Below are positions 9,372-62,324 of a stretch of 64,000 nucleotides of DNA, piece by piece (the first letter of the stretch is position 1; each line of letters begins with the position of its first letter). The position numbers were made by a program, and so were the translations under genes. The DNA comes from an uncultured Flammeovirgaceae bacterium (GTDB taxonomy: Bacteria; Bacteroidota; Bacteroidia; Cytophagales; Cyclobacteriaceae), in NCBI GenBank assembly GCA_913045135.1, contig CAJWQD010000004.1:1-64000 (forward strand). Direction: 5' to 3'. Below the pieces are notes generated by a model. That model had not been told where the DNA came from. It worked only from the letters and a program-made list of their open reading frames with translations, and did no database searches.

Positions 9372-11096
9372 TTAAGTTCTCGGAAATCCTTGATAAGATA
9401 CCCAGTTTACATCTATAAAAGCTTTGGTACTTTCCCCATTTCCTGTAGCATACAATCCTAAATACGCTCCGGTATATGAGCTAGTTCGATGGCTTAAAAT
9501 TAAATCCCCCTCTGAACTCATAAATGAAATGTACTCTTGCCCTTGATCAAGAGAATATTGATAATGATATTGATGATCTTTTGAAATCACTTTTAACGTA
9601 ATCTCTCCATCATAACTAGATAAAATCTCTTGTTTCAAAATTTTAGGATCATCTTTGGGATCTTTAATGATCACCCGAAGCACAATCACCCCTTGTTCTT
9701 TGATTAAGGTAAAATTGATATAATTATTGTCTTTTTGAAAGAGACTGATGCCGGCCTCTTCACCATCTTTATTGGGTCGATAGTGAATGCTGGTAGTATA
9801 TTCAAAATCACTTTCTCGCTGTCTAAAGCCCATCAAACTAGCCTGTCCCCTATTTTCAATTATCTCGGGCTTTGCATACAACCTCAAATAGCCCGTTCGA
9901 GCAGACAATGAAAAAGTATTGGATTTGGGCACCCTTCTAAAATTCCATTCTAAATTTAATTCTAATCTATCAAAGTTGTCATTAAATGCATCATCTTGAT
10001 ATTGCTGAGTCTGTTTAAAAGGCATGGGATTAATTCGCTCGACCTTACCTGTTTCAGGTGCTGCTACGGGAAATTCATAAGTAATGGGTTTCCATTCATC
10101 ATCACTAACTTGCTCCCATCGTACCGTTGCTTTTTCCCACAAGACCGGTACTAAGTGGGTCTCTCTACCCATATTAGATTCTTGTTGCACATCCCCACGC
10201 TTACCCAAGGCGACCATAAACCATCTCCCATCTGGAACATTAACCAAATCGGCATGCCCTGTACTGTGTACCCAATTATCTTTAGATAAATGCCTCGAGG
10301 TGAGAATAGGATTTCTCGGATTAGAATCATAAGGCCCGGTAATTTTGTCACTCGCGGAAATCATTACCGCATGATTAAAAGAAGTTCCGCCCTCAGCAGC
10401 CATCAAGTAATAAACTCCATTTCTTTTATACATATGAGGCCCTTCCAAACAACAGCCACCACAAGCTCCTGTCCAAACAGAGGTTCTCTCACCTTTCAGT
10501 TGCCACTTGGTGAGATCCAATTCTTGTACCCACAACTCCCCAATCCCATTAGCATTTTTATCCCCTTTGTCATGGGTTCCAACAAACCAAACAGTGCCAT
10601 CATCATCAAAAAATAAATCAGGATCAATTCCTGGTGCCCCATCAATAATGTGAGGTTTAGACCATGACCCAGCAGGATCTTTAGCTGTGATTATAAAGTT
10701 GATGAACTGCGTAGGACCGACAGTCGGACTGTATATGTTGGTGGTAATTATATAGAAAGTGCCATCATGATAACGTATGGTAGGTGCATGAATACCACCA
10801 TTGCTTTGGACATCAAGTAAGTTATTTGTTCCATTACATTGATCCTCTCTGTCTAGACCATATCCGATCAACCCCCAATTTACCAAGTCCTTGCTTTTGT
10901 GAATAGGCAGCCCTGGAAAGTATTCGAAAGATGAGTTAACTATGTAATAATTCCCTTGAGCTTGACAAACAGAGGGATCTGGATAGGCCCCAGGTAAAAT
11001 AGGATTGGTAAAAGTTTGGGCTGCTGATAAAAATGAAATAAATAAAACGATATAGCTAATTAGGAATTTCATAAATATTATAAAAATTTTATGCAT
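9372..11096 (-). CDS. Glycoside hydrolase family 43 (beta-xylosidase / alpha-L-arabinofuranosidase type) with C-terminal concanavalin-like domain
   Basis: NPILPGAYPDPSVCQAQGNYYIVNSSFEYFPGLPIHKSKDLVNWGLIG, GIDPDLFFDDDGTVWFVG, EGPHMYKRNGVYYLMAAEGG; signal peptide ending SAAQ. Confidence 0.92.
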   Translation of the reverse strand: MHKIFIIFMKFLISYIVLFISFLSAAQTFTNPILPGAYPDPSVCQAQGNYYIVNSSFEYFPGLPIHKSKDLVNWGLIGYGLDREDQCNGTNNLLDVQSNGGIHAPTIRYHDGTFYIITTNIYSPTVGPTQFINFIITAKDPAGSWSKPHIIDGAPGIDPDLFFDDDGTVWFVGTHDKGDKNANGIGELWVQELDLTKWQLKGERTSVWTGACGGCCLEGPHMYKRNGVYYLMAAEGGTSFNHAVMISASDKITGPYDSNPRNPILTSRHLSKDNWVHSTGHADLVNVPDGRWFMVALGKRGDVQQESNMGRETHLVPVLWEKATVRWEQVSDDEWKPITYEFPVAAPETGKVERINPMPFKQTQQYQDDAFNDNFDRLELNLEWNFRRVPKSNTFSLSARTGYLRLYAKPEIIENRGQASLMGFRQRESDFEYTTSIHYRPNKDGEEAGISLFQKDNNYINFTLIKEQGVIVLRVIIKDPKDDPKILKQEILSSYDGEITLKVISKDHQYHYQYSLDQGQEYISFMSSEGDLILSHRTSSYTGAYLGLYATGNGESTKAFIDVNWVSYQGFPRT

Positions 11097-12140
11097 TTAT
11101 TGACAGGATGCAAACATTGTAAAATCTTCACCAGTTGAGAAATCTCTAACAATATTATTCCCATTTTTATCTTGAAAATTATAAGTAATCATAGTTATTT
11201 GATCAGAAAAATTTAATTCAAAAATATCTTTTGGCCAGATAGTAACTTCCCAAATATCACCTCCAATAAAATTTAAAGCTGTTTTATCAGTCTTATCACA
11301 AACTGATATTACTGTTCCATCATCTAATGTAGCCTCTGCACATAAATAAACAAAACTAGCTCCACTGAGTTTTGTTACTCCCTCATTTGCTCCTATCGAG
11401 GCATCAAAAGTGATTTTTAACAAATCATTATAACTAAAAACATCAGGACTTATAACACTCGTCCCAGGTGCAGGTTCTGGACCACAATAGTTTATAGGTG
11501 CTCCAGTACCACCCGTAATTTCAATACAATCCCCTAATCTAAAATCTTGATTTTCATTTAGCTCCCAAATTCCATTATCATTTTCTCCAATAAAATATCC
11601 TAATTGAGCGGTAATATTATTTGGTCCTACAACAGTTTCAATATTCACAGTTCCATATATGGGAAGATAGGCAGGATTATGATCATAAGGTTCATCTGCC
11701 ATAAACATTACCCATTCCATTTTAGTTGGATCATAGTTTTCACCTGTCCCGTAATTAAAGGTTAAAGTTTCTGACCATGGCTTTCCACCTTTACCCTCAA
11801 TGGCTCCTTCAACCATTGGACTCATGGTACTATTATAAACCTCACTCGCAATACTCATAACTGTATTTGCCCCGGCATTCCACGACTTTGGTGCCAAAAA
11901 TCCAACCACTGGCATTGTGCCGCCAACATTTCCAGGATTAAAATTATCCTCCAATACTTCAATGTCTAATTTAATGGATATTGTTTCCCCAGCAATTGCT
12001 GTCTCGGGTTGTTCAAAAGAAATGATATCAAAACATCTAGTTAGAAAAAAAGCTATCAAGACAACAGTTCCACTTATGACAACCGGCGACCAAAACTTTT
12101 TTTGTAACATCTTTTTTAATAATGAACTCATGATTCTCAC
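11097..12140 (-). CDS. PUL-associated secreted protein, DUF4961-like
   Basis: N-terminal TM/signal with Cys (FLTRCFDII), beta-rich, encoded directly after SusD and a small lipoprotein. Family name from recall only. Confidence 0.6.
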   Translation of the reverse strand: MRIMSSLLKKMLQKKFWSPVVISGTVVLIAFFLTRCFDIISFEQPETAIAGETISIKLDIEVLEDNFNPGNVGGTMPVVGFLAPKSWNAGANTVMSIASEVYNSTMSPMVEGAIEGKGGKPWSETLTFNYGTGENYDPTKMEWVMFMADEPYDHNPAYLPIYGTVNIETVVGPNNITAQLGYFIGENDNGIWELNENQDFRLGDCIEITGGTGAPINYCGPEPAPGTSVISPDVFSYNDLLKITFDASIGANEGVTKLSGASFVYLCAEATLDDGTVISVCDKTDKTALNFIGGDIWEVTIWPKDIFELNFSDQITMITYNFQDKNGNNIVRDFSTGEDFTMFASCQ

Positions 12141-12595
12141 AATGTGCTATTTTTAGTAAAATGATAGATATATGAAACATCACTACAACCCAAATTAAAC
12201 TCTAAATGAAGTTCATCATTTCCGGTAGTCAATAAAGGTTGGTCTACTGTCGATATAGCAGTATCTCCGTAAACGAAATACATCTCACTTGGATATAATT
12301 CATTATCAAAATGCCACGAACCTGTACTCTGCGTAGCTGGAAATGGTACTGGACCGTCAGAATTTATCGAAAAATCTGACGGAAGACCATTAGCATAGTT
12401 TAAGACAATTTCAAATGAGTTAAAATTATAATTGTTCGAAATATCTATCTCATTCTGCTCTACACTAGAAATTGACCAAGAACCTGAAATATCAGGTGAA
12501 TTACTACTCAGTAATTCCTCGTTAATAGGCCACTTTTCATCACATTTAAATAGGCAAATTATAGCAAATGCCGCAATAATTTTTTTGATCTCCAT
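12137..12595 (-). CDS. Small lipoprotein (lipocalin-like / DUF5004-like)
   Basis: Lipoprotein signal MEIKKIIAAFAIICLFKC; ISGSWSISSVEQN opening typical of lipocalin-like Bacteroidota lipoproteins; overlaps both neighbours. Confidence 0.6.
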   Translation of the reverse strand: MEIKKIIAAFAIICLFKCDEKWPINEELLSSNSPDISGSWSISSVEQNEIDISNNYNFNSFEIVLNYANGLPSDFSINSDGPVPFPATQSTGSWHFDNELYPSEMYFVYGDTAISTVDQPLLTTGNDELHLEFNLGCSDVSYIYHFTKNSTL

Positions 12596-13953
12596 TAATT
12601 TCCTGATCTAGTTAAACCATGTATATCCACTTCGTTTCCAGGAAATGGATACAACAATAATTCTATCCATTCTGAATACGTTTTAAATCCCTCTCCTTCG
12701 TCTTGAGTTCTAATAATTCCAAATTTCAAACGCTTAGTATTGAGAAAATGATCTCCCAACTCAAAAGCTAATTCCTTAGTGCGATCTTCAAAAAGCATAT
12801 TAAGTGCTTGATCTTTTGTAGGAATAGAAGTTAATGCTGAAGATGGCTTAGCCCTATTTCTTAGTACATTAATATCATCAACATCTTGTTGATTTACAGA
12901 GCCATTAATCATAATATTGGCTTCTGCTCTAGTTAAATGCATTTCAGCCAATCGAATGTATTGATAATGCATTTGATCAGTAGTATATTTTTCAACATAG
13001 ACATAGTTATCATCTGAAGAATAAAGACCCGTATAACGGGAATCTTCTTCATCCATAATCATTTCGGCAGCTACCCCATTGGTGTTCATACTATAAAAAC
13101 CTAAAGTTGGTGAGGCTTGATAAGCCTCAAAAATACGGGCAGAAGGGCTCACTCCTGAGCCATCCACAGAATTGAACATGATTTTGAATATAATTTCATT
13201 TGAATTCCCTGGTGCAGTAAAAACTTCTGTTACGTCAGACTCTAATGAATATTGACCGCTCGTAATTACTTCATTGGCTCGAGCATATGCCGAGTCGTAT
13301 TTTTCGTGAAAAAAGTAAATCCTAGCGGCAAGTGCAGTAGCTGCATAATAGTTCGAAATACCAGATGATGCTTCTTGGAAATGAGCTCTGGCATTCTCAA
13401 TTTCAGATTCAATGAATGCACTGAGCTCGGAAGTTTTTGCACATGATACCCGATCGTCTATGCTCAAGGGTAACTCAAGTAAAGGTACAGTGTAATCTGT
13501 AATAGGATCTCCCCAGTAATTATTTAAATCAAAATAGATCAATGCTCTTAAAAAATGAGCATCTGCAAGTACTGCTGACTTCTCCGCATCCGTCGCTGCC
13601 GTATTAGCCAAGTCATCTGCAAAAATTTTATTTACGGTTCCAAGAGCTGTGAACCCAGATGTATATTGCCAGGAAGTCATATTGGTGCCTATTTCATGAC
13701 CATAAAAATTATCGTACTCTCCCCTATTTCTATTGACAACATCTCGCATCATTCCCGCAGAATACAACGCTGACTGACTCACAAATGGCCTAATTTGAGC
13801 ATATGCCCCATATAATAATGCCTGAGCAGAAGCCAAATCAGTTAATTTATCTGGAGTCAATCCGATATTGGGAGGATTATCTAAAAAATCATCTCCGCAT
13901 GACCAAAAAATAGTATAAACAAATATTATAACTAACTTTTTCATCCTAAACAT
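12595..13953 (-). CDS. SusD/RagB-family outer-membrane glycan-binding lipoprotein
   Basis: Lipobox FWSCGDDFLDNPP, TPR-like pattern (AEKSAVLADAHFLRALIYFDLNNYWGD, RLAEMHLTRAEANIMING), C-terminal FEDRTKELAFELGDHFLNTKRL; immediately follows SusC. Confidence 0.95.
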   Translation of the reverse strand: MFRMKKLVIIFVYTIFWSCGDDFLDNPPNIGLTPDKLTDLASAQALLYGAYAQIRPFVSQSALYSAGMMRDVVNRNRGEYDNFYGHEIGTNMTSWQYTSGFTALGTVNKIFADDLANTAATDAEKSAVLADAHFLRALIYFDLNNYWGDPITDYTVPLLELPLSIDDRVSCAKTSELSAFIESEIENARAHFQEASSGISNYYAATALAARIYFFHEKYDSAYARANEVITSGQYSLESDVTEVFTAPGNSNEIIFKIMFNSVDGSGVSPSARIFEAYQASPTLGFYSMNTNGVAAEMIMDEEDSRYTGLYSSDDNYVYVEKYTTDQMHYQYIRLAEMHLTRAEANIMINGSVNQQDVDDINVLRNRAKPSSALTSIPTKDQALNMLFEDRTKELAFELGDHFLNTKRLKFGIIRTQDEGEGFKTYSEWIELLLYPFPGNEVDIHGLTRSGN

Positions 13954-13955: not shown

Positions 13956-16900
13956 TTATAGATTAATAACTAGACCCAAAATTATTGATTTTGCTTGCGG
14001 AGATTGCTTAAAAGCTCCTCCTGCTCCAATATTATTACCTTGACGACTTTGTACAACACCAGTAAATTCAGGATCCCAGAAAAAATTAGGCGCCTTGGTA
14101 AAAGTTAGGGCATTGACCAATTTTAAGGATAAGTCAAACCCCTTTACTTTCGTGCCTCGGGTAGTTATTTTATATCCTATTGTCAAATCTCTTAATCTTA
14201 AATAATCTGTGCTATAAAGGTGCTCAGAGGTTCCCTCCCAGAAAACATTGCTAGTATTTACCTGTGAGACATTAGATGTGTTACCATCTGGTGAGCTCCA
14301 TGAGTTCAACATGTGAGTTGGTGGATTTAGTTTATTCCCACCAAAAGGTTGTGTTAAGGCCTTCATGTATCCATCTTCATAGGTTTGGCCTGTAGCAAAA
14401 GTGAAAAGAACACTCCCATAAAATTTTTTAAAGCTAAATCTATTTTCTAAACCTCCTGTATAATTTGGCCAAGGATTCCCCATAGGTCGTCTGTTGGCCT
14501 GTTCGAAAAGTGCAAAGCTACCATAATCTTCAATTGCTTGACTGTAACTCAATAAATTTCCCTCCAAATCCTTATAAGTATCTTCACCTGTAATTTGATC
14601 TACCCCAACCCACTCAACTAACTGATTTACACCGACGGGATAACCAGGAAAAATTGAAATACCTCCTAAGCCAAGACTCGCAGAGATGCCATCTTCAATA
14701 AGTTCATCGCCAAGACTGGTAACTAAGTTTTCATTGTAATTCAGAGTAACAGTACTCGACCATTTGAATGAACTTCTATTGACGTTAACAGAGTTAATCA
14801 CTAAATCATAACCTTTATTCGTCAATGTACCAGCATTTCTTGTCACCAACGAAACACCGGTCATTTGTGATACCGGAAAGGGCAAAAGTAAATCATTAGT
14901 TGTCTTATCGTAAACATCAAACTCTCCACTAATTCTCCCTTCTAAAATCTCGAAAGTGATACCTAAATTAAGTTGAGATGTAGTTTCCCAACCGAGCTCA
15001 TCATCCCCAACATTAGAAATACCCAAACCCGTATTGGCATTATAGGTTGATGTTCCGTAAGTAGAAAGATACGAGTAGTCCCCAATTTCAGAATTACCTA
15101 CCAATCCATAACTCATACGAATTTTCAAAAAATTTACAACCGTAGAAAGCGTGGAAAAAAAGTCTTCATCGCTTAATACCCATCCAAGTGAAACAGCAGG
15201 AAAATATCCCCATCTGTTATCTGGACCAAACCGAGAAGAGCCATCGGCCCTGAAACTTACAGATAAAATATAACGATCTTGAAAGTCATAATTTACACGA
15301 CTTATATAAGACAAAAACGAGTAAGTTGATTCACTATTCGCAGCATTGATGATGGCTGCATCTTGAGGTCTGGTAAGAGTAGAATTGATAAACGTATCCC
15401 CAAATACAGAATTTAATTTAGACGTATAAGATTGCATTTCTGATGCCCCCAAGAGATCTAAGTTATGCTGACCAAAAGTTTTTGTGAAATTCACAATATT
15501 CTTCCAATTATAACCCATACGCTTTCCATTAACTGTAGATGCTACAGATCTACCATGGCTCGTAATTTGACCATCGCGAAAATGAAAATCATCATTGAAC
15601 AATAAATTACTACCGAGCTCTGATCTGAAACTCAATGCATCTAGAATTTGATACTTAAAATACCAGTTACCTAATATTTGATTACTTTTTAAATTAATTG
15701 TTCTTAAATCAACACCCGCAACTGGTTGTTCGTCAGAAACATTAAAATATGATCCATCTTCTTTTCTCACTGGCCAAATAGGAAGCATTTCAGAGACATT
15801 ACTTACACCACCAGCCCAATTGGTTGGAACTTGCTTATCGTTAATATAAGTAAGCATCAAACGCCCACCTATCGAAAGCTTTTCATTTATTTCATGGTCA
15901 ACATTAAGTCGCGTACCAAATCGTTGATATTTATTCCCTCTTAAAATGGTGGTTTGATCTTTAACATTTGCGCTTAAAAAAAAAGTAGTTTTTTCACTGC
16001 CTCCTGAAATAGAAACATTATAATCGGCGACTTGCCCTACTTGTAAAACTTGATCAACCCAATCAGTATCTGTACGCTCTGCTTGCTCCTGAGTTAGACC
16101 GTCAACCAATACGCCGCTATTAGCCCAAAAATCAGCTATATCGAAACCAGAATTATACCATGCCTTTTTAGCTAAAATTAAATATTGCTCGGCATTTAGT
16201 AAATCAATTTTGTTGGTGGCCTCTGACAGCCCAAATGAACCAGATACCGAAACTTGCGTATCCCCAGATTTCCCATTTTTAGTAGTTATCAATACAACCC
16301 CATTTGCTCCCCTAGAGCCATATATTGCAGCTGCAGCTGCATCTTTTAAGACTTCCATGGATTCTATATCTGCTGGATTTAAACTCGCTAAAACATTCGT
16401 ATTAGCCGCTTGTTGTAAATTCCATTCTTGTATGCCTCCTCCCGGTTGAGATGTGCTAATTTCTCCACTTTCAATTGGAATTCCATCTATCACATAGAGT
16501 GGTTCACTATTTGCGCTGACAGATGAGGTGCCCCTGATACGTACCCGGATAGCGGAACCTCCCAAGGCACTACTTGTAGTTACTTGGACTCCCGGAACAA
16601 TCCCCTGCAATCCTCCTTCAAATGAGTTAGTAGCAGCAGAATTTAACTTCTCAACATTAACCCTAGAAACAGAACTTGTCATTTTACGTTTAATCTGAGT
16701 GCCATATCCCATTACTACAACCTCCTCTAACTCTTTTACATTAACGCCCAATATAACATCTATTACGGACCGTGCACCAACCAAAATCTCTTGATCATCA
16801 TAACCTATAGCGCTAAATACTAAAGTAATATTTTCATCAGGAACGTTCAGTTGGTAATAACCTTCATAGTCGGTTATAGTTCCGGAGGACGTACCCTTAA

Positions 16901-17417
16901 TTACAACATTTACCCCTGGTAATCCCTCATTATTTTCATCGTATACAATCCCTGATACACTCCGTTCTTGTTTAGAAATGACGAGATCTAATTCCTTTTG
17001 TGGGATATTCTTCTGAACATTAATATTTTGATTAATTTGCCGAAAATTAAAGTTAGATTTTTTGGCTATATCGACCAACACTGCATAAACTGTTTGATTT
17101 ATATATGAGCCATTGAAATATCTATTTTTTTCAACATCTTTCTCGTCATAAGCAAATACGAATGGTGTTATATTTTCTATTTTTTTAAAGGTTGATCTAA
17201 TATTATCATTATTTAAAATGAGATTAATTTTTACTTTTTTAATGCTTTCAAAGTTATTATTCTGTATTCCATTATTCTCTTTTGCCAAAACTACCCCCTG
17301 AAAAAGCCAGATTGAAAGGCCCATCATTTGAATCAGATGGGTTATAAACTTTAAGACTCTAAAGTGCAGAATCTTTTTTTGAGAAATTTGAAATGAGAGC
17401 ATCTTTATTTCATCCAT
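13956..17417 (-). CDS. SusC/RagA-family TonB-dependent receptor with N-terminal STN domain
   Basis: STN-like N-terminus (INLILNNDNIRSTFKKIENITPFVFAYDEKDV), carboxypeptidase-like plug extension (VSGIVYDENNEGLPGVNVVIKGTSSGTITDYEGYYQLNVP), VVMGYGTQIKRKMTSSVSRV, EVLKDAAAAAIYGSRGANGVVLITTK. Confidence 0.97.
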   Translation of the reverse strand: MDEIKMLSFQISQKKILHFRVLKFITHLIQMMGLSIWLFQGVVLAKENNGIQNNNFESIKKVKINLILNNDNIRSTFKKIENITPFVFAYDEKDVEKNRYFNGSYINQTVYAVLVDIAKKSNFNFRQINQNINVQKNIPQKELDLVISKQERSVSGIVYDENNEGLPGVNVVIKGTSSGTITDYEGYYQLNVPDENITLVFSAIGYDDQEILVGARSVIDVILGVNVKELEEVVVMGYGTQIKRKMTSSVSRVNVEKLNSAATNSFEGGLQGIVPGVQVTTSSALGGSAIRVRIRGTSSVSANSEPLYVIDGIPIESGEISTSQPGGGIQEWNLQQAANTNVLASLNPADIESMEVLKDAAAAAIYGSRGANGVVLITTKNGKSGDTQVSVSGSFGLSEATNKIDLLNAEQYLILAKKAWYNSGFDIADFWANSGVLVDGLTQEQAERTDTDWVDQVLQVGQVADYNVSISGGSEKTTFFLSANVKDQTTILRGNKYQRFGTRLNVDHEINEKLSIGGRLMLTYINDKQVPTNWAGGVSNVSEMLPIWPVRKEDGSYFNVSDEQPVAGVDLRTINLKSNQILGNWYFKYQILDALSFRSELGSNLLFNDDFHFRDGQITSHGRSVASTVNGKRMGYNWKNIVNFTKTFGQHNLDLLGASEMQSYTSKLNSVFGDTFINSTLTRPQDAAIINAANSESTYSFLSYISRVNYDFQDRYILSVSFRADGSSRFGPDNRWGYFPAVSLGWVLSDEDFFSTLSTVVNFLKIRMSYGLVGNSEIGDYSYLSTYGTSTYNANTGLGISNVGDDELGWETTSQLNLGITFEILEGRISGEFDVYDKTTNDLLLPFPVSQMTGVSLVTRNAGTLTNKGYDLVINSVNVNRSSFKWSSTVTLNYNENLVTSLGDELIEDGISASLGLGGISIFPGYPVGVNQLVEWVGVDQITGEDTYKDLEGNLLSYSQAIEDYGSFALFEQANRRPMGNPWPNYTGGLENRFSFKKFYGSVLFTFATGQTYEDGYMKALTQPFGGNKLNPPTHMLNSWSSPDGNTSNVSQVNTSNVFWEGTSEHLYSTDYLRLRDLTIGYKITTRGTKVKGFDLSLKLVNALTFTKAPNFFWDPEFTGVVQSRQGNNIGAGGAFKQSPQAKSIILGLVINL

Positions 17418-18423
17418 TTTTAACCACTACTTTTTTATCTAATATTTCGAAGTCAAACCCTTGAATATATCCCAAGGATCCCAAAATCCAATCTAAATTT
17501 TGATTATCATAGCTTGCATTTATACGCCATTCATCTTCAAAAGGCTCACTTATCAAAAAACTAAATCCATACCACAATTCTAATGCTTCGAATACCTCTT
17601 TTTGACTCGCATTTTCAAAAAATAAAACACCATCTTTCCAAGCATTAGTTTTTGGGTTAAACAGTCCTCTTTTGAGCGTTTTAAGATCATTATTATATGC
17701 CAACTGCTCTCCAGCCACTAGATATTGATCCTGAAAACCTTCATGCTCATTATGAACCTCAATTTGCACCTTGCCCTCCGATAAAGACACTATTACTTCA
17801 TTTTTTGAATATGCATTAACGTTAAACATAGTGCCTAGAGCAGTGGTCGTAACTCCGTGCGCGACGACAATAAAGGGACGGTTAACATCTTGAGCGACTT
17901 CAAAATAAGCTTCTCCAGACAATTCTATTTGTCGTTTATCTTTATTGAATCCTTTAAGATAACTTACACTGCTTCCTGAATTAAGGTTTACTATTGAACC
18001 GTCACTAAGATATATGGTTGATTTTTGTCCGAAAGGATTTTTTTTAGTGATTATTTGTTTTCGATCACTGGTATTGACTCGGGCACTTATTTCGGTTTGA
18101 AATAAATATGCCGAAAATATACTGATTATCACTATTGATGAGGCTACCTTTAACCACATTTTGTAATAGTCGATTGCTTTAGATTTCTTTAACCTTTTAG
18201 ATATTTTTTGACGCTTGTCTTCTGAAATTCTACGCTTCACATTGTTGAAAATTTTATCTTTACAAAGATCATAATTTTGTTCAGTCCAATAACTACGAAT
18301 GGCTTCATACTTCCTTTGGTTATCTGGATCTTTGTCCATCCACTCTTTCAAAATGATTTTTTCTTTCTTTGAAGCCTCACTCGTCAAAATACGTAATATT
18401 ATGTTTGTTATATTAGTGTCCAA
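17410..18423 (-). CDS. FecR-family anti-sigma factor
   Basis: Single TM helix (WLKVASSIVIISIFSAYLF) plus FecR domain (IYLSDGSIVNLNSGSSVSYLKGFNKDKRQIELSGEAYFEVAQDVNRPFIV); overlaps SusC start by 8 bp. Confidence 0.95.
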   Translation of the reverse strand: MDTNITNIILRILTSEASKKEKIILKEWMDKDPDNQRKYEAIRSYWTEQNYDLCKDKIFNNVKRRISEDKRQKISKRLKKSKAIDYYKMWLKVASSIVIISIFSAYLFQTEISARVNTSDRKQIITKKNPFGQKSTIYLSDGSIVNLNSGSSVSYLKGFNKDKRQIELSGEAYFEVAQDVNRPFIVVAHGVTTTALGTMFNVNAYSKNEVIVSLSEGKVQIEVHNEHEGFQDQYLVAGEQLAYNNDLKTLKRGLFNPKTNAWKDGVLFFENASQKEVFEALELWYGFSFLISEPFEDEWRINASYDNQNLDWILGSLGYIQGFDFEILDKKVVVKNG

Positions 18424-18456: not shown

Positions 18457-18486
18457 TATAACGAAAAAATAGGTTCTTACCCCCAA
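18457..18486 (-). promoter_or_regulatory. Candidate ECF-sigma promoter for the fecR-susCD operon (TTGGGGG-N16-CGTTATA)
   Basis: Minus-strand reading TTGGGGGTAAGAACCTATTTTTTCGTTATA, 34 nt upstream of fecR. Matches an element at 45034..45063 with identical boxes and spacing. Confidence 0.6.
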
Positions 18487-18577: not shown

Positions 18578-19690
18578 ATGTACCTTAATTATATAGTTTG
18601 GAATCCAAACCCTATTTTTTTAAAAATTGGTGCGATATCTGTACTTTGGTATAGTTTTTTATTTGCAAGTGGATTTATCATCAGCCGTTTTGTGATTTTT
18701 AGTATTTACAGAGCAGAGGGCAGAGTGAGAAATAATTTAGATTATCTGCTTTTATATATCATTTTAGGCACTGTCATTGGGGCAAGGATGGGTCATGTTG
18801 TTTTTTACGAGCCTTTCAAATATTTTAACAACCCTGTTAGCATATTAAAAATTTGGGAAGGTGGTCTTTCATCTCATGGCTGTGCTCTGGGAATTTTAGT
18901 CGCTATTTACTTTTATGTATACAAACTTGAATTCTCAACTAAAAAAGTCCGAATAACAAAACATAATAGACAAGGCCACAGTTGGTTACAAATAGTTGAT
19001 AGAATTGCAATTGTCGTTGCTTTAGGCTCAATATTTATTAGGATAGGTAATTTCATGAATAGTGAAATGATTGGAAAACCTACGAAATCAAACTATGGAG
19101 TCATTTTTGTTGGTGCTAAGACGCAGCAAGTAAAGGATCGAATTCCCACCATTCATTCCATTTCAGTAATAAATGAAAATCAATATATAGAGAATAATGA
19201 TCCTCTACTTACCCTAGAGATCAAGCTAAAAGAGCACATAGTAAATAAAGATATTGCAGAAAGCATTTTCAAAAAGAATATAAAACCATTATTGTTGAAA
19301 AAACAAAAACTCCCAAATTTAATAGCATCAGAAAATATCCCTATTGAGATAAAAAAATCTAAGCAAGGATACTTAGGTCATTTTAAAATGAAAGGAATTA
19401 TCAGGCATCCAAGTCAACTTTATGAAGCGGGTATTTGTGTAATTACCTTCATACTTCTCATAACGATATGGGGTATGAGAAAAGAACATACTCCAGGCGG
19501 TCTGATATGGGGTATTTTCCTTTTGGTAATATTTGGTTCAAGAATACCACAAGAGCTGATCAAGGAGAATAATGTAGCATTTGGAAATGGATTTTTGTTA
19601 AATCAAGGTCAGTATTTGAGTCTTCCGTTTGTTATGTTAGGGATATACTTAATCGCCCGAATCATAATAAAAAAACGCTCAATTAACTAA
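18578..19690 (+). CDS. Prolipoprotein diacylglyceryl transferase homologue (Lgt paralog 2)
   Basis: Lgt topology and motifs WYSFLFASGFI, GARMGHVVFYEP, IWEGGLSSHGCALGI, RIGNFMNSEMIGKPT, RHPSQLYEAG, SRIPQELIKENN; ~90-aa insertion before RHPSQLYE, as in the 61-62 kb Lgt. Confidence 0.85.
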   Translation: MYLNYIVWNPNPIFLKIGAISVLWYSFLFASGFIISRFVIFSIYRAEGRVRNNLDYLLLYIILGTVIGARMGHVVFYEPFKYFNNPVSILKIWEGGLSSHGCALGILVAIYFYVYKLEFSTKKVRITKHNRQGHSWLQIVDRIAIVVALGSIFIRIGNFMNSEMIGKPTKSNYGVIFVGAKTQQVKDRIPTIHSISVINENQYIENNDPLLTLEIKLKEHIVNKDIAESIFKKNIKPLLLKKQKLPNLIASENIPIEIKKSKQGYLGHFKMKGIIRHPSQLYEAGICVITFILLITIWGMRKEHTPGGLIWGIFLLVIFGSRIPQELIKENNVAFGNGFLLNQGQYLSLPFVMLGIYLIARIIIKKRSIN

Positions 19691-19779: not shown

Positions 19780-21186
19780 TTAATTATACTGATCGAACAC
19801 CGCTTGGTAAGCTGGAGCAATGGAATCAATTAAAGAAGGTTTTAATAAATTATTTTTGATATGAAGATTTATTTCTTCAACCATCCTTTCTATTATGGCA
19901 GAGTTTTTCTTAGACAAATTATATTGCTCCGAAGGATCTTGATCTAAATTAAAGAGAATTGGAAAATCATCATCGGAAAATTCTTTGCCTCTAGGATTTG
20001 GATTTTTTATAAAAATTTTCCAGGCGCCATTACGCATAGCGATCAATTCTTGTTGCTTGTAATAAAAAATAGGATGTGACAACTCCTTTTCTAAAAAGAA
20101 ACTAGAGGATATATCTCTTCCATCAAATGTTTCATGATCGTAATTAATCCCAGCCATTGACATGAAAGTAGGCAATAAATCCAATGTGCTTCCAACTCCG
20201 TTAAAAATTTTATTTTTGGGAATACTGCCCGGCATCCAAGCTATGGTCGGAACTCTGAATCCTCCCTCCCAAGTAGATCCTTTTTTTCCTCTCAATAGTC
20301 CTGCAGAACCTCCATTAATTCCCGCCCAGCCCCAAGGACCGTTATCACTTGTGAAAATAACAAAAGTGTTCTCATGAATATTTAGTTTATGGAGTTTATC
20401 TAAAATAGCGCCTACACTCTTATCTAGCACTTGGACCACATCTCCATAAAGGCCCCTTTTACTTTTTCTTGCATTTAGACTGTCCACATGTAAAGGCACA
20501 TGAGGAAAAGTCTGAGGCATATACAGAAAAAATGGCTTGCTTTTATTTTTCTCAATGAATTCAAGTGCTTTGTCAGTGTATCTTCTCGTTAATTGGCTTT
20601 GATCTGGTTCCAACTCAATGATTTCTGTGCCTTCCATCAATGGCAAAGGAGGAAAGGCCGCCTTTGCATAATCCCAATTATTGTTAGGTGGTGACATGTC
20701 ATTGGAATAGGGTATACCAAAATAATAATCAAACCCATGTTGAGTAGGTAAAAATTCTTTTTTATGTCCTAGATGCCATTTCCCTATACAGGCCGTCATA
20801 TATCCAGCGCTACTGAGTACACTTGAGATGGTTGATTCTGATGTTGGGAGACCCCCATATGAATCAGGAAATAAAACGCTTCTTGCCCCTGCCATTCCTA
20901 TTTTAGCCGGCAATTTACCCGTCAATAGTCCGGCCCGACTAGGAGTGCAAATAGATGCGGCTACATAGAATTGCGTAAGTTTCATACCCTCATAGGCCAT
21001 TTGATCGAGATTTGGTGTTTTGATAGTTGGATGACCAAAACTGCTCAAATCACCATACCCCAAATCGTCGGCAAAGATGATGATAAAATTAGGTGGGATA
21101 ATCTCTTTTTCTGATAGTTTGCAAGCAGAAAAATAAATGCTAAAAAGGATAAGAATTTTAATCCAGTAATATTGTTTAATTCTCAT
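19780..21186 (-). CDS. Sulfatase (S1 type, arylsulfatase-like)
   Basis: PNFIIIFADDLGYGDLSSFG, sulfatase signature CTPSRAGLLTG, GKWHLGHK, FTSDNGPWG; lipoprotein-type signal (FSACKLSE). Confidence 0.95.
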   Translation of the reverse strand: MRIKQYYWIKILILFSIYFSACKLSEKEIIPPNFIIIFADDLGYGDLSSFGHPTIKTPNLDQMAYEGMKLTQFYVAASICTPSRAGLLTGKLPAKIGMAGARSVLFPDSYGGLPTSESTISSVLSSAGYMTACIGKWHLGHKKEFLPTQHGFDYYFGIPYSNDMSPPNNNWDYAKAAFPPLPLMEGTEIIELEPDQSQLTRRYTDKALEFIEKNKSKPFFLYMPQTFPHVPLHVDSLNARKSKRGLYGDVVQVLDKSVGAILDKLHKLNIHENTFVIFTSDNGPWGWAGINGGSAGLLRGKKGSTWEGGFRVPTIAWMPGSIPKNKIFNGVGSTLDLLPTFMSMAGINYDHETFDGRDISSSFFLEKELSHPIFYYKQQELIAMRNGAWKIFIKNPNPRGKEFSDDDFPILFNLDQDPSEQYNLSKKNSAIIERMVEEINLHIKNNLLKPSLIDSIAPAYQAVFDQYN

Positions 21187-23798
21187 TCTAATGTAATTAT
21201 TTTAGTATCATCCATTATTTTCGGACTATTTGAATCCCCACCCCCATAGGTCCAAGTTGTTCTCGTCTTGTCTATGGTTCTTGGGTTAGTGGCGCTACCG
21301 CCCCAGGTGTTTATATATAGATTGGCATTTTTTAAGGTAGCGGGATTACCCAACATTTTAGCTGGAAGTATAACACTTATTTTATTTTGCTCATAGTCAA
21401 CATTTGCAAATGGTGTTGTAATGGATTTCCCTAATTTTTCTGGACCCGAAATAAGGGGATGACCTTCAAATGCTTCTATTCCAAAACCGCCCAAAGCAAA
21501 TCGATAATCCCACTCACCCTCACCAGGGAAAAAAGCATTTTGAAAAGGTAAAAACTTCACTCCTTCTGTCTTATCCGGCACATCAATATAAATATTTAAT
21601 AATACATGATCAAATCCATTTGGGGGGATCCATATTTGAGTAATTTCTGACATGGTAATTTCTAAGGTTAAGTTATTTCCGGTAAGATAAACGTCTACAG
21701 CCTTTATGTCTTGCTGGTGACCAAAGCTGCTGTGACTTGGGTATGTGTATTTACCATAAGGCCCGTGATCATCCTGAATTTCGTCTTCATAATGGAGTAA
21801 ATGTTTAGTGGGTAAAGCCAATGTAAAATATTTAGATGAGGTTATTAAAAATCCTTTATCGTCATAGCCAATCGCAGTTATCCTATGTTTACCATTCATC
21901 AAATTACTCAAGCTTAAATCATAAAACCAGTTATTTTGATTCTTATTTGTGATGGGTAAAAAATACTCATATTCTCCATCTATTACCAACCCAATTTTTT
22001 CGACTTCTTTTGCTTTTCCACTTAATTGAATTACTGGTACATTCAAAATTTCCGAAAAATCATTATTTAATTCTATAGTTCCATGCAAATCGAACTTTGT
22101 CTGCGAATTGTCACCAGTATTTAAATAAACTTGCGCACTTTTAGCATCTAAAATCATATCTATAATTCTATCATTGGAAACCGATAAAATTTCATTTCCC
22201 ACTCCTATACTGTATTTGGAAACATAATTTCCTGGAGAAAATGCGGGTACGCTTAATCCATCTATCAATTGAAGGTTCGCTGAAGTATTAATCAAAATCA
22301 ATGCAGTAACATCATCTAATTTCATTTCATATACGAATAATCCAGGACCATAAGAATTGTCTCTTAATATTTTAAGTTTGCCTCTTCGAAACACTTCGTT
22401 TGATTTTCTTAATTTTATTAGACCCTGAACAAATTTGAAATATGCATTTTCTGTATCAAAGTGATCTTTATCTTTTGATCCTACTCCTCCCTTAAACATA
22501 GTTTGACGCATTCCGGTTAACTCTTGTTCAGTTCCATAATATATAACAGGGACTCCTGGAATGGTCATTATGAACAATAATGCTTGCCTCATAGTCTGTC
22601 GATCAGATTTAGAGAGGAGTCGAGCGGCATCATGATTATCAATAAAATTAAGTAACTGATCTGAGCGTTGAAAGTTTTCTTGAATACTCTTCATCCTGAA
22701 TGAGAGGGTACTCGTAGGTTTCTTCTCTATGAAAACACGATTTATGGCTGTATTTAATGGAAAATTTAATATCGAATTCATTTCAGGTTTCTTCTTGGTC
22801 CCTAAATATTTACGCGCCTCTTTCGTTCCGGAATGGTCAAAAGGTTTAGGGAAAAAAGCTACCTCTCCGGCAGTTAAAAAATGTTCTTTCCCCAACTGTT
22901 TTGCCAACAGATCAATACCTAGATGATCCCCCTCCTTATCATGAAGAAAACTATGCCAAAAATCATGCTCTACCATGTGGGGCGTATCAAATCGGAATCC
23001 ATCAACTCCTACTTCTTCAATCCAATAACCAAAATTCTTTCTCAAGGCATCTCGAACCACTGGATTGGATGTATTCAGATCATCCAAATCGGCATACTGA
23101 AATTGCGTTTTTTGGATGGTGTCTGAATGGTCAGTAAAGCTTGGTGCAAAATGGTAAATTCCAAGTGCACGATCTTCCTCTTTTCGGGCATCATTATGAT
23201 TAAAAGGATATTGCTCGGGCTGTTCAACGGCATGCAGCTTAAAATTTTTTGATACATCCTCAGGGTCATAGGGCCCGTCATAAGTGTAAAAATCTCCAAA
23301 ATGATTTACCACCACATCTTGAACAAGATACATTCCTTTCGAATGCAGCGTCGCCGAAAGTATCTTATAATCCTCTAAATCTCCTAAGTGTTTGTCTACT
23401 TGATCTAATCTACTTGCCCAATATCCATGATTTCCAGTTCCTGTTTGTTGTGGGTTTCGCCATTGATTGGCTACTGGTGGAGTGATCCAAACTCCTGTTA
23501 CACCGAGCTCTTGTAAATAATCAATCTTTTGAGTAATTCCTTTAATATCACCTCCATTCCAAAAACCTCCATCTCCTTTTTTATACTCACCCGTTCCTTG
23601 GTCGTTATTGGCTGAATCCCCATCCATAAATCGGTCGGTCACGATAAAATATAATATCTGATCTGCCCATTCTGGAGAGGGTATCTGAAGGAACTCGTAC
23701 CCATTATCTGAATGTATTGAGCGATTTGGCCCGACGTCACAGCTTACTCCAAACAATAAAATAATCAAAAAAATAAACCGTGAAATTTTTCCTATCAT
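21183..23798 (-). CDS. GH13 alpha-amylase-family lipoprotein with C-terminal glucodextranase-C-like (DOMON-like) domain
   Basis: DVVVNH, GFRFDTPHM, AGEVAFF, LNFIDNHDAARL GH13 conserved regions; C-terminal DDHGPYGKYTYPSHSSF...WDYRFALGGFG; lipobox FGVSCD. Confidence 0.92.
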   Translation of the reverse strand: MIGKISRFIFLIILLFGVSCDVGPNRSIHSDNGYEFLQIPSPEWADQILYFIVTDRFMDGDSANNDQGTGEYKKGDGGFWNGGDIKGITQKIDYLQELGVTGVWITPPVANQWRNPQQTGTGNHGYWASRLDQVDKHLGDLEDYKILSATLHSKGMYLVQDVVVNHFGDFYTYDGPYDPEDVSKNFKLHAVEQPEQYPFNHNDARKEEDRALGIYHFAPSFTDHSDTIQKTQFQYADLDDLNTSNPVVRDALRKNFGYWIEEVGVDGFRFDTPHMVEHDFWHSFLHDKEGDHLGIDLLAKQLGKEHFLTAGEVAFFPKPFDHSGTKEARKYLGTKKKPEMNSILNFPLNTAINRVFIEKKPTSTLSFRMKSIQENFQRSDQLLNFIDNHDAARLLSKSDRQTMRQALLFIMTIPGVPVIYYGTEQELTGMRQTMFKGGVGSKDKDHFDTENAYFKFVQGLIKLRKSNEVFRRGKLKILRDNSYGPGLFVYEMKLDDVTALILINTSANLQLIDGLSVPAFSPGNYVSKYSIGVGNEILSVSNDRIIDMILDAKSAQVYLNTGDNSQTKFDLHGTIELNNDFSEILNVPVIQLSGKAKEVEKIGLVIDGEYEYFLPITNKNQNNWFYDLSLSNLMNGKHRITAIGYDDKGFLITSSKYFTLALPTKHLLHYEDEIQDDHGPYGKYTYPSHSSFGHQQDIKAVDVYLTGNNLTLEITMSEITQIWIPPNGFDHVLLNIYIDVPDKTEGVKFLPFQNAFFPGEGEWDYRFALGGFGIEAFEGHPLISGPEKLGKSITTPFANVDYEQNKISVILPAKMLGNPATLKNANLYINTWGGSATNPRTIDKTRTTWTYGGGDSNSPKIMDDTKIITLE

Positions 23799-23953
23799 AT
23801 GCCAATAAAGACGTAATTAAAGGCCTTATCCCCTAAATGACCCTGTCAAATTTTGTATATCTATGAGATATAAATTAATTGGAGAAAGATATATTTCCTT
23901 CATCCTTAAATTAAGGACACAAGTAATTTTCTTATTTATTTATTTTAAGAAAA

Positions 23954-24752: not shown

Positions 24753-27059
24753 TTAATTATTTGATAATAAAAAAATTAACGGCTGGTGAAACCGTTGGTG
24801 CCAAGCGGCTTCGTTATGATCTGCTTCAAAAACTTTTTTTGTAATCCAATTTATACCTTTTTTGTACCCCTTACGATGCATCGCTTGATCTATTTCACTT
24901 TGATAAGGTTCATAACGGGCATCAAGACCTCTTGTCCCAAAGTCAAAATATAGCTTATGTGTTATCGGATCTGGAAGGTTTTTTTCAAAATAATCAACAA
25001 ATACCCCCTCCAAGGGTATCCAGTGCGTAGACAAACAGGCAGCACCACCATATATTTCTGGGTATTTACTAATGGCGTAAGCAGAAATCATGCCTCCCAT
25101 ACTCGAGCCCGCAATAAAGGTATGTTCCCGATCGGCTAATGTTTTAAAATGAGCATCAACATAAGGTTTTAGCTCCTTTACTAAAAACTCCAAATAATTA
25201 TCAGAATGCAAAGGTATATCGCTGAAATACTTATCCTCTAATAAATCAAGTCTTCTAAATACTTCTTCCCGTGGCTCCTCAGGCATATATTCTGCCCTGC
25301 GTCGAACACCAGTATTGAAAATTCCCACAATAATAGCTTTTTGATCAAAACCTGTTTCATTTAAACTATCTAAAATAAAATCGACATCCCAACCTCTTTC
25401 TAATCTCTTCTTACCAAATCCTGCATTATTTGGATGAAATATATTCTGTCCATCATGCATATAAATGACGGGAAATCGCTCACTATAAGAAACATTGACT
25501 GGGAATAATACCTCAATAGGTCTTGGAATTACCCATTTGGAAGGAAAGCTATCAATTCTTAAAGTCGCATACCGATTACCTTGTCTGATAAAATTTGGTG
25601 GAAAAGGAGCGCCGCCATCATAATTATTTTTTTCAAAAATTTCTCCATTTGCAATTTGACGAGGATCTTTGGTTTTAATTAACTCAGAATTAAGTAAGTT
25701 TCGAAGATGTGTTTTAATGACTGAAAATTTAGGGTCACCAAAAATGTTTTCCAACTGATCAGGATCCTTTTTGACATCATACAATTCAAAGGCCGGTCTT
25801 TTTCCAAACGATTCTTCAAACAATCGCTGATATTCCGCATCGTCATGCCGATGATCAATTAGGTATGATTTTGTTGGCCCACCATCAACATCTGAATAAT
25901 AGGAAGGGAAAAAAGAAGCCTCATAGTAATTAGGTGTACCCGCAGGCCACCTATCAGGTGAAAAATTTTTAATTAATAAATACTTCTGGGTTCGAACAGC
26001 GCGCATGGGGTAACCTCCCCAATCTCCATTTTCCTGTCCAGGTACGTGACGCTCGCGACCAAAAAATACTTCTTCTCTGAGTTTGTAAGAAGAGTCTTCC
26101 AGCAATTTAACCAAACTCCTTCCAGTCATCACTTTTGGAATTTCCAAACCAGCCCAAGCTAAAAACGTCGGTGCTAAATCAGTCAAGCTGACGAGTTGAT
26201 TTATTCGAATCCCTTTTTGCTTAACCTCTCTACCAGACCATGTGATCAATGGCACGCGTGTACCTAAATCATATAAATTCCCCTTTGCCCTTGGGAAAGG
26301 CATACCATTATCGCTAGTTATTATGATGATGGTATTATCAAGCACACCTTCATTTTTCAAACTATTAATCAGCTGATTGACTTCTTCGTCCAAATCTTGC
26401 ACCTCTTTCAGGTAGTCTGCCATGTCAGATCGAATGACTTCACTTTCTGGATATACCTTGGGCATCTGTATTTTGGATATATCCAATCCCTTCTCTCTAG
26501 CAGAACCTCCCTCATAACCTCTGTGCGGGTTGTAACTTCCAAACCAAAAGCAAAAAGGCTGCGCTGGATCTATTTTTTGAACAAAATTTTTAAAGGATTT
26601 AAAATATTTACCGGCAGGATTTGAAGACAAATGATCATGTTTTCCGGGACCCCAGCCTTTGTCTGTATAACCTACAGCATAACCTGCATCCCTCATTATT
26701 TCCGTATAAATTGGTACTTCAGAAGATAATTTACCAAATAAATTAGCTCCTTGTCCTAATCTCCAAAAATGCTGGCCGGAAAGTATTGCAGCCCTTGAAG
26801 GAGTACAGGAGGGAGCCGAAACGAAGGCCTGTTCAAATATGACCCCTTCTTTTGCTAACCTATCCATTGTTGGTGTGTTTACAGAGCTATCACCATAAAA
26901 CCCGGCATGAGGATAACTCCAATCATCTGCCATGATAAGGATAATATTTGGCGCATTTTCGTTGACTTTGTTATCTGAATTACAAGAAAATAATGCCTGT
27001 AAAAATGATAGAAGAAAGAAATAATTTATCCACTCTTTTGGTTTCATTTTTAATTCCAT
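24753..27059 (-). CDS. Two-domain lipoprotein: N-terminal S1 sulfatase fused to C-terminal Fes/EstD-type alpha/beta-hydrolase (esterase)
   Basis: Sulfatase: NIILIMADDWSYPHAG, SCTPSRAAILSG, ITSDNGMPFPRAKG. Esterase: FPVIYMHDGQNIF, nucleophile elbow AGSSMGGMISAY, terminal DHNEAAWHQRF. Confidence 0.9.
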   Translation of the reverse strand: MELKMKPKEWINYFFLLSFLQALFSCNSDNKVNENAPNIILIMADDWSYPHAGFYGDSSVNTPTMDRLAKEGVIFEQAFVSAPSCTPSRAAILSGQHFWRLGQGANLFGKLSSEVPIYTEIMRDAGYAVGYTDKGWGPGKHDHLSSNPAGKYFKSFKNFVQKIDPAQPFCFWFGSYNPHRGYEGGSAREKGLDISKIQMPKVYPESEVIRSDMADYLKEVQDLDEEVNQLINSLKNEGVLDNTIIIITSDNGMPFPRAKGNLYDLGTRVPLITWSGREVKQKGIRINQLVSLTDLAPTFLAWAGLEIPKVMTGRSLVKLLEDSSYKLREEVFFGRERHVPGQENGDWGGYPMRAVRTQKYLLIKNFSPDRWPAGTPNYYEASFFPSYYSDVDGGPTKSYLIDHRHDDAEYQRLFEESFGKRPAFELYDVKKDPDQLENIFGDPKFSVIKTHLRNLLNSELIKTKDPRQIANGEIFEKNNYDGGAPFPPNFIRQGNRYATLRIDSFPSKWVIPRPIEVLFPVNVSYSERFPVIYMHDGQNIFHPNNAGFGKKRLERGWDVDFILDSLNETGFDQKAIIVGIFNTGVRRRAEYMPEEPREEVFRRLDLLEDKYFSDIPLHSDNYLEFLVKELKPYVDAHFKTLADREHTFIAGSSMGGMISAYAISKYPEIYGGAACLSTHWIPLEGVFVDYFEKNLPDPITHKLYFDFGTRGLDARYEPYQSEIDQAMHRKGYKKGINWITKKVFEADHNEAAWHQRFHQPLIFLLSNN

Positions 27060-28765
27060 TGAAGTGTATCACTTGGAGCAAATCCGATGCGATGGGCAAT
27101 AACCAAAATAGGAGTTTCATGATCCATATCTAATGGTGATTTATAAATCTGCCATCCAAGCCCCTCTTCCAAATCTTGGGGCCGTTTATAGCCTATAGAA
27201 GCCCCTTTAGTTTGACAGGTGATGTGTAATTTCCCGTTTTCAATATGAAAAACAGGATTAGCCGTTAAGGGTTGAATTTTATCAGGCCAAAAGGTATTAA
27301 TTAATTCTTGTTCAGGAATATGCCCCATATCTTTTATATTACCCATCCATATTTCGCACTCTCTTCTTAATTCACTCAATATGCTCTTGAATTGAAGATC
27401 CTCTGCTAGGTTATTTAATTCATAGGGATCAGAATAGGTATCAAAAAGTTCTTCAATCGGCTTAGTCTCTCGAAACCAAAGAGCTTGTTCTTTATTTAAT
27501 GAATCGATCTGGTGTAAACGCAATAACTCTTGCATGCTAGCCATATTTTCACGGTATGCCAATGGTAAATAATAAGGCGTTTGTGGTTGGAAATTCTTTA
27601 AATATTTGAACCTTTTATTCCGAACCGCTCGAATCATATCATAAGTCTCATCAAATCGATCCGCTGCTGCGTGGATAAATTTTCTTTCCTCGGAATTTTT
27701 ATACTCCCCTTCAAAAGCTAAACCCTGCATATATTCCGGGGGCTTTATATCCATCATCGATAATAAAGTTGGAGCAAAATCTACAAAACTTATTAGTCTG
27801 TCATCAATTTCACCGGCACGTAGTTTATTAGGATATCTTACAATCATGGGTACATGTAAACCGGCATCGTACAATAATCTTTTTTGTCTTGGTAATGGAC
27901 CCCCATGATCGGTAAACCATACTATTATAGTATTTTCTAACAACCCATCTTCCTCCAGTTGAGTCAGTATGTTTCCAACATGATCATCCATCCGAGATAT
28001 ATTTGAATACATTCTTCTAACATCATTTACAACTTTTTCTGTTCTCGGAAGATAAGGAGGTATTACTACAGAAAGATTCTCATCAATTAAGGGCAAGAAC
28101 TTATTTTGGAATTTCTTCCACCACCTTTTTACTGTCCTGGGAGGAGGAAATACATCTAAATCATGTTTTTTACCTGTAGGATTCCAGATACTTGATTCAT
28201 GAGTAACCATAAAGCTAAACATAGAATAGAAAGGTTTCCCAATGGGCCTATTTCGCCAATGTGCATAAATACTGGATTCATCCCATGCCATTCGAGATGG
28301 GAGAAATTGATAATCTTCCTTGGAGTTATTGGACGTATAATATCCATTTTCTCGTAAAATTTCACTGACCATTTTAACCTTTGTAGGCAAGACTACCTCA
28401 TAATTTATAATCCCCATTTTTTTCGCTGCTGGTTGTTGGTATAAGGTACGCATATGATGTGCTCCAATACTCGTGGGATACATTCCAGTAGCCAATGCGG
28501 CACGGCTTGGAGAACATACGCCAGACACGCTAAAAACATTATTATATCTCACTCCTTCAGCTGCCAATCGACTTAAGTGTGGGGTTTTAATCGTTGAGTC
28601 TCCAAAAGGTGGAATATAAGGACCCAGATCTTCAGCTACTAACCACAAAACATTAAATTTCTCTTTTGACTCAATGGATTCATCAGGTATTTTTTGACAT
28701 CCCCCCGTCACTAGCAAAAAAATAACAACAGTTAAATTAATGATTGATTGTTTTTCATTCTTCAT
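27050..28765 (-). CDS. Sulfatase (S1 type) with C-terminal chitobiase-C-like beta domain
   Basis: NVLWLVAEDLGPYIPPFGD, GVCSPSRAALATGMYPTSIGAHHMR, WFTDHGGPLPRQK; C-terminal NPVFHIENGKLHITCQTKGASIGYK; lipobox VTGGCQK. Confidence 0.93.
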   Translation of the reverse strand: MKNEKQSIINLTVVIFLLVTGGCQKIPDESIESKEKFNVLWLVAEDLGPYIPPFGDSTIKTPHLSRLAAEGVRYNNVFSVSGVCSPSRAALATGMYPTSIGAHHMRTLYQQPAAKKMGIINYEVVLPTKVKMVSEILRENGYYTSNNSKEDYQFLPSRMAWDESSIYAHWRNRPIGKPFYSMFSFMVTHESSIWNPTGKKHDLDVFPPPRTVKRWWKKFQNKFLPLIDENLSVVIPPYLPRTEKVVNDVRRMYSNISRMDDHVGNILTQLEEDGLLENTIIVWFTDHGGPLPRQKRLLYDAGLHVPMIVRYPNKLRAGEIDDRLISFVDFAPTLLSMMDIKPPEYMQGLAFEGEYKNSEERKFIHAAADRFDETYDMIRAVRNKRFKYLKNFQPQTPYYLPLAYRENMASMQELLRLHQIDSLNKEQALWFRETKPIEELFDTYSDPYELNNLAEDLQFKSILSELRRECEIWMGNIKDMGHIPEQELINTFWPDKIQPLTANPVFHIENGKLHITCQTKGASIGYKRPQDLEEGLGWQIYKSPLDMDHETPILVIAHRIGFAPSDTLQWN

Positions 28766-30797: not shown

Positions 30798-30802
30798 ATT
30801 TA

Positions 30803-32185: not shown

Positions 32186-32308
32186 AAAAATTCTTTTAAT
32201 ATTTTTTGACCCATTAATAGAAAAGGCTGTTATTATTTCTGACTTTGATATCGAAATCCAATCAGTAGATGGCATAAATTGAAATCCTTAAGTCTTAGTA
32301 TGTTATTT

Positions 32309-33238: not shown

Positions 33239-33253
33239 TCCATAGTTTTTTTG

Positions 33254-34831: not shown

Positions 34832-34873
34832 ATTTCTGATCCTTTAATTTGAATATCTATTTTACCCCAATTC

Positions 34874-37486: not shown

Positions 37487-37621
37487 ATGATTTTGTTTAA
37501 ATTAATAAATACTAAAAATACGCAGAGAGGTACACAGTTCCTCAATTCAACCTCAAATGAATACCTTTGAGGGCTCCAATCAAAAAAGAATAATACCAAA
37601 CATTTATAATAAACCATTCTC

Positions 37622-40069: not shown

Positions 40070-40276
40070 TTAATTTATTGATTTATGACTGTTTGACCCT
40101 TCGAAGGGAAAGCCTAAATTTACCGTTTGGACAAATACTGGCCTATGTGGCGAGCGGTAACACATTAAATAAAAAAGTATTCTTTCCCCATTTTCGAGAA
40201 AATCGACGTCTGAATCCGAACGTAACTCATCTTTTCATATTCTATTTTCATAATCATAAGGAGCAAATTCTTAGTA

Positions 40277-40570: not shown

Positions 40571-40873
40571 AAATTATTAAATTTCCTGATGCTCCCTGAT
40601 AGCTTATCAAGCTATATTATTTTTATAATTTTTCGCCCAATAGCTCCTATTTCATTATCTCTTAAATTACAGCTAGAAAGAAACAGGATATTGAGTTTCA
40701 TTAATTTTTTTATCATAGGCATCCTGACACCCAAACAAAATGATGCGAAAAATGAAATAGGATATCCCGTTGTCCATCCTTATTACCTTAATTTAAATAC
40801 CAAACATTCTACACCTATGATGACGAGAATAAAAGTGGATCCCCTCAAAAAATCAAACAACATTATAGTTAAT

Positions 40874-41770: not shown

Positions 41771-41864
41771 TTTTGAATAATTATGTAAAAATATCGGTTA
41801 CAAAAAAAATATTTAGATTCAAAGCTATATCGATATCTAAAATCTGCAAAAAGTATATTTTTTC

Positions 41865-62322: not shown

Positions 62323-62324
62323 AA

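Follow-up and report, generated by a model that had tools for sequence, protein, structure and literature searches.

We propose that three copies of a two-part element in the analyzed stretch of DNA (64,000 nucleotides, hereafter the window) are promoters read by the ECF sigma factor encoded at 45134-45694, and that they drive three operons of one contiguous PUL of approximately 36 kb. To this reading, which is built on comparative sequence analysis, we assign a probability of roughly 0.87. The element is almost certainly a promoter for a single alternative sigma factor, which would switch on at least three operons of one sulfated-sugar degradation cluster (Table 1). A large fraction of the polysaccharide loci of Bacteroidota is under the control of ECF sigma/anti-sigma pairs, whose promoters have been hard to predict; such prediction has been described as a challenging task for which mapped start sites are needed (PMC3878776).

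Table 1. Elements, genes, and domains of the PUL and its surroundings (window coordinates).
Feature	Position	Strand	Annotation
Element 1, TTGGGGG-TAAGAACCTATTTTTT-CGTTATA	18457..18486	-	Predicted ECF promoter of fecR-susC-susD-DUF5004-DUF4961-GH43
Element 2, TTGGGGG-ATTGAAATATTTTTTT-CGTTATA	45034..45063	-	Predicted ECF promoter of lipoprotein/FG-GAP operon
Element 3, TTAGGGG-ATAAGGCCTTTAATTA-CGTCTTT	23807..23836	-	Predicted ECF promoter of GH13-sulfatase operon
FecI-like ECF sigma factor	45134..45694	-	Pfam Sigma70_r2/r4_2; TIGR02985, 127.9 bits (cut-off 126.4)
FecR-type membrane anti-sigma factor with FecR_C domain	17410..18423	-	Pfam FecR, FecR_C
SusC/RagA TonB-dependent transporter	13956..17417	-	TIGR04056; extra N-terminal STN-like domain before CarboxypepD_reg domain
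STN-like domain of SusC, residues 57-140	16998..17249	-	Predicted fold, pLDDT 89.6
SusD-like lipoprotein	12595..13953	-	Profile match
DUF5004, DUF4961, and GH43 genes	9372..12595	-	Contiguous with susCD; intergenic gaps of -4 to 0 nt
GH13/glucodextranase-C enzyme and sulfatase	19780..23798	-	Genes overlap by 4 nt; behind element 3
Genes behind element 2	24753..44950	-	Lipoprotein, FG-GAP/T9SS protein, GNAT, GH97, GH3, beta-lactamase-like, BD-FAE esterase, sulfatases, SASA esterase, sulfatase-esterase
Lgt paralog divergent from fecR	18578..19690	+	Position conserved; outside the predicted regulon
GCAATCGATTTCG, partly palindromic, conserved	45782..45794	-	Upstream of the sigma gene

The original prediction described a near-identical element upstream of fecR-susCD and of a distant lipoprotein/FG-GAP operon, and both copies (elements 1 and 2) were found exactly as given, with the same 7-nt boxes and spacers of 16 nt each. 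The surroundings are indeed not conserved between the two sites, where flank identity amounts to 18/40 upstream and 23/60 downstream. The proposed regulon link between the two operons stands, but "distant" is misleading, as the PUL is contiguous and they constitute its two ends. The pattern TTGGGGG-N15..18-CGTTATA matched twice in the window and never in 100 dinucleotide shuffles of it, and base composition predicts 0.0003 matches per 64 kb. Scanning the whole genome, as had been suggested (a 2.1-Mb draft, 82% complete), returned two exact TTGGGGG-N16-CGTTATA matches and none with a single mismatch; given this level of completeness, further sites may be absent from the data. Matches with two mismatches were dropped as regulon members, their number (13) being comparable to that of a reversed-pattern control (12). 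Single exact matches in the genomes G045 and G265 do not exceed what the control gave.

Element 3 is a variant copy overlooked by the original prediction, which was found via the relatives and then in the window. It is a weaker site, with TTA in place of TTG, and 8 nt separate its end from the annotated ATG of the GH13/glucodextranase gene, so that the predicted mRNA would be nearly leaderless. In the 2.1-Mb genome, the relaxed pattern TTRGGGG-N16-CGTY is matched at three sites and no others, all within this PUL and all on one strand, the one that also codes for the operon each of them precedes. As composition alone predicts about 1.2 such matches, and controls gave two, the case for element 3 leans on position and conservation, the number of matches being insufficient by itself. 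Between them, the three elements stand ahead of all large gene groups of the PUL (9372 to 44950), with co-transcription assumed across the 804-nt gap that separates the GNAT and GH97 genes.

The contrast first drawn with the TAnnTTTG housekeeping promoter was upheld, as no such box occurs, for any of the three elements, in the interval that runs from 100 bp ahead of the element to the start codon. This absence also bears on a different reading of the elements, namely as an operator for a conventional DNA-binding regulator common to the PUL operons, since a conserved two-part site before several operons of one PUL could equally be a bipartite operator. Along with the missing housekeeping box, the asymmetry of the boxes, the fixed 16-nt spacing, and the promoter-like distance from the start codons argue against an operator. 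So do the recurrence of the element directly behind FecI-like sigma genes across genera and the co-segregation of its two boxes with two DNA-reading sigma regions, both presented below, and we regard the operator as quite unlikely.

The comparison of orthologous loci, likewise suggested at the outset, revealed that the elements are kept at orthologous places in relatives from the same genus. Sigma orthologs with 76-82% identity were recovered from five genomes of the genus and one further contig, and TTGGGGG-N16-CGT was located 65-76 nt past the sigma stop codon in all six orthologs fetched. The element 1 site is conserved upstream of the fecR orthologs of G001, G002, G005, G009, and G068, the last belonging to another genus, and the diverged FecR of G006 has TTAGGGG-N16-CGTC upstream. 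The counterpart of element 3 is identical in G005 and reads TTAGGGG...CGTC in G001, G002, G006, and G009; G001, G002, and G006 have in addition a fourth site, which is divergent and lies ahead of a GDSL-lipase gene not found in the window. Across ten genomes of the genus, TTGGGGG-N11-W5-CGTY matched 14 times, always at a site belonging to this PUL, compared with once for the control, and the genomes devoid of matches (G003, G004, and G007) are also devoid of close relatives of the sigma factor and FecR. The -35 box and CGT show 100% identity within each set of orthologous sites, partly by construction because the boxes were used to locate the sites, and flank identity (measured upstream) is 60-80%. 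The TTATA part proved to be lineage-specific, which leaves CGTY as the conserved -10 core; of the -10 box initially given as CGTTATA, the CGT thus survives and TTATA as a conserved part does not.

The same comparison addresses the possibility that the elements are ECF promoters read by a different ECF sigma factor of this genome, which does encode other ECF-type sigma genes and of which about 18% is missing from the assembly. The remaining ECF genes that were found have no such element behind them and differ in their region 2.4 and 4.2 sequences, and the element adjoins the sigma gene of the PUL in all orthologs, as it does homologs in other genera; another reader is accordingly very improbable. 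In G068, both main sites, each with CGTCCTA, precede the orthologous lipoprotein/FG-GAP and fecR-susCD operons. Hence, recent duplication or nonfunctional chance similarity of the two window sites, to which the 9/16 identity of their spacers might point (most of it due to a shared T-tract), is a negligible prospect, as both sites occupy orthologous positions in a different genus with spacers of their own, which makes the pair old, and chance is excluded by the shuffles and the composition expectation.

A linkage to homologous sigma genes was also observed throughout the family. Exact TTGGGGG-N16-CGTCCTA occurs eight times in 397 family genomes, six times directly behind a homologous sigma gene and once before the G068 fecR, and five of these genomes display the order sigma, element, fecR, susC. 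When 124 family sigma homologs were picked by similarity to the window sigma, TTGGGGG was detected within 200 bp after the gene in 33 of them in the sense orientation and in none in the antisense orientation (shuffled mean 0.8), and FecR comes next in 39 of the 45 family sigmas having a TTGGGGG/TTAGGGG-like element. Alignment of 32 elements on TTGGGGG alone yielded low information throughout the spacer and a jump at offsets 24 (G in 29/32) and 26 (C or T in 32/32), which is an unanchored rediscovery of the 16-nt spacing. The ECF form, the single regulon, and the sigma factor at 45134-45694 as its reader, all advanced in the original prediction, are therefore supported by orthologous conservation and by linkage to homologous sigma genes in other genera, to which the co-segregation of the -10 type with sigma region 2.4 is added below; this support is comparative in nature. 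Phylum-wide, TTGGGGG lies behind one of the 30 top TIGR02985 sigmas and some others have TAGGGGT...GTCTTATA-like stretches, hinting at a G-tract -35 that is perhaps more widespread in the phylum. FecI-like sigmas of other families (L273, L280, L286, L292, and L295) exhibit (T)AGGGGT or TTGGGGG, then GTCTTATA-like boxes.

The -10 box varies by sigma clade (CGTY, TGAC, TGYT, RGT, and ATTC), and the three sigma columns most informative on the -10 class correspond to window residues 82, 79, and 74, all within region 2.4. Residue 82 is Asp in all 14 CGT sigmas, Asn in the TGAC and TGYT clades, mostly Thr in RGT, and Val in ATTC. The G-tract, in turn, accompanies an EN pair (residues 160-161) in the region 4.2 helix, being present in 51 of 87 sigmas with EN and 3 of 73 without it, and the helix motif that goes with it is EN[QH]. 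Upon counting relatedness, the CGT/D82 association retained no more than two independent contrasts with support when these columns were left out of the tree, both in agreement and with little power, and no significant support was obtained for EN versus the element, where the pairs were uninformative and power was low. Within the searched stretch, 36 sigmas with EN and 17 D82 sigmas have no element. Since both residue associations are confounded by relatedness, a specificity code is a strong lead and not a result. On this comparative footing, we lean slightly toward the view that FecI-like ECF sigmas of the Cyclobacteriaceae would have in common a TTRGGGG -35 box and a 16-nt spacer, combined with an exchangeable -10 box set by the residues equivalent to 74, 79, and 82. 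Equating residues 79 and 82 with sigma70 Q437 and T440 was dropped, as a by-eye SY alignment puts N78, and not residue 79, on Q437. The sigma clade located beside the CGT clade (L166-L168) has V82, and ATTC replaces CGTC behind TTGGGGG-N16; one of its members shares a contig with a CGT-type paralog (G018:C257), comprising a natural specificity-swap pair.

The best model for the locus, and a likely one, is a SusC-FecR-sigma surface-signaling system whose sigma and anti-sigma genes, 27 kb apart, bracket one PUL. This distance is the same in the window and in G009, and the two genes are separated in other relatives too. Three FecR-domain matches occur in the genome, and among them the FecR of the window is the strongest. 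As a fold search with the whole SusC N-terminus gave only the CarboxypepD_reg domain, its STN-like part was folded alone with AlphaFold2, which predicted a beta-alpha-beta-beta-alpha-beta-beta topology. The best PDB match of this model was the Parabacteroides anti-sigma factor BDI_1681, followed at lower rank by the signaling domains of PupR, PupA, and FpvA. Among 11 aligned SusCs, Pfam STN was detected in 3 and FecR_C in 9, and the window SusC falls below the cut-off; the model nevertheless identifies a predicted STN-like signaling domain in it.

Under this model, a glycan passing SusC would bring about a change in the periplasmic STN-like domain, which would act on FecR and lead it to free the sigma factor, provided that FecR and this sigma are partners. 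RNA polymerase with the freed sigma would then recognize the TTRGGGG -35 box by region 4.2 and the CGTY -10 box by region 2.4, across a fixed A/T-rich spacer of 16 nt. The three promoters thereby fired would serve the lipoprotein/FG-GAP operon with the enzymes behind it, the GH13-sulfatase operon, and fecR-susCD-GH43, including the promoter that makes more FecR and SusCD. No copy of the element was found upstream of the sigma gene itself, which is probably transcribed from another promoter. The predicted order is thus one in which the sigma factor is made independently and its anti-sigma and transporter are made by the sigma, with predicted feedback that would be positive via SusCD and negative via FecR. 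The GCAATCGATTTCG motif, approximately 90 nt before the sigma start codon and conserved upstream of the sigma orthologs L061-L065, may represent a candidate operator for the sigma gene, perhaps bound by a separate regulator.

General ECF promoters have a GGAAC-like -35 and a CGTC-like -10 box. The elements resemble them in the CGT-type -10 and in the fixed distance between the two boxes, but their -35 consists of TT followed by four to five G, not GGAAC. The 2021 ECF reclassification reportedly includes predicted promoter motifs per group. A text search of the literature for TTGGGG, sigma factor, and Bacteroidetes retrieved no paper, those per-group motifs lying outside the comparison. The locus is similar to FecI-FecR-FecA signaling and its PUL version in having a TIGR02985 sigma, a FecR with FecR_C, and a SusC with an STN-like domain, in line with the STN domains reported for SusCs of ECF/anti-sigma PULs (PMC7782687). 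Unlike in these systems, however, the window sigma and fecR are nonadjacent, at the two ends of the PUL and each beside its own promoter copy, whereas the usual family order has fecR directly after sigma.

One ECF sigma acting on several sites inside one PUL has a parallel in PUL24 of Bacteroides thetaiotaomicron (BT1877 sigma/BT1876 anti-sigma), for which more than one start site inside the PUL is described; 5' ends lie ahead of the transporter gene and of an enzyme gene, and no housekeeping promoter sequence accompanies the former (PMC11501099). PUL24 differs in that no ECF consensus is described in the parts consulted and in that the sigma gene is not required for basal transcription (PMC11501099). 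The SM6 motif of Flavobacterium psychrophilum is similar in that CGT at -10 was taken as an ECF signature, with mapped start sites; it differs in controlling T9SS and envelope genes, in the lack of a G-tract -35 described in the sections consulted, and in leaving the responsible sigma unsettled (PMC9723704). CGT -10 ECF promoters (PMC9723704) and several ECF-dependent starts per PUL (PMC11501099) are therefore already known in the phylum. Apparently new are the G-tract -35, the link between it and this class of sigma factors, and a layout that puts 27 kb between sigma and anti-sigma.

Because the sigma and anti-sigma genes lie at opposite PUL ends, the pair would be missed by adjacency alone. 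Comparative genomics here provided a predicted promoter, its putative cognate sigma, a genome-wide predicted regulon comprising three operons, and residues that are candidates for specificity; exchanging just one or two residues or bases would test the idea directly. The boxes appear to track the DNA-reading residues of the sigmas across the family and, if so, such switches could be read from sequence alone. Should the code be true, the regulons of many orphan PUL sigmas would become predictable and insulated paralogs in one genome distinguishable.

Further observations concern the gene content of the locus and its relatives. The TTGGGGGACATAATTCTTTTCTTCGTT site of G005:C49 (L075, 1498-1524), a TTGGGGG-N16-CGTT outside the known PUL contigs, coincides with the start of a gene for an esterase-like lipoprotein or lies immediately ahead of it. 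The site has no counterpart, and no evidence places it in the PUL; it is possibly an extra regulon member or a chance match. On G006:C9 (L135, L136), the SusC, FecR, GH13, GH97, and FG-GAP reading frames are each in several pieces, which may reflect decay of the PUL or an assembly error. The window has long gaps at 23837-24752 and 40070-40873, where relatives carry genes: a GDSL lipase in G001, G002, G006, and G009 (in three of these genomes it has a divergent element to itself) and an extra sulfatase in G002, G006, G008, and G009, both of which the window strain appears to have lost. Finally, two prolipoprotein diacylglyceryl transferase (Lgt) paralogs are encoded in the window, one of them at 61165-62340 on the minus strand and the other, divergent from fecR, inside the PUL, at a place kept in the relatives and in another genus.
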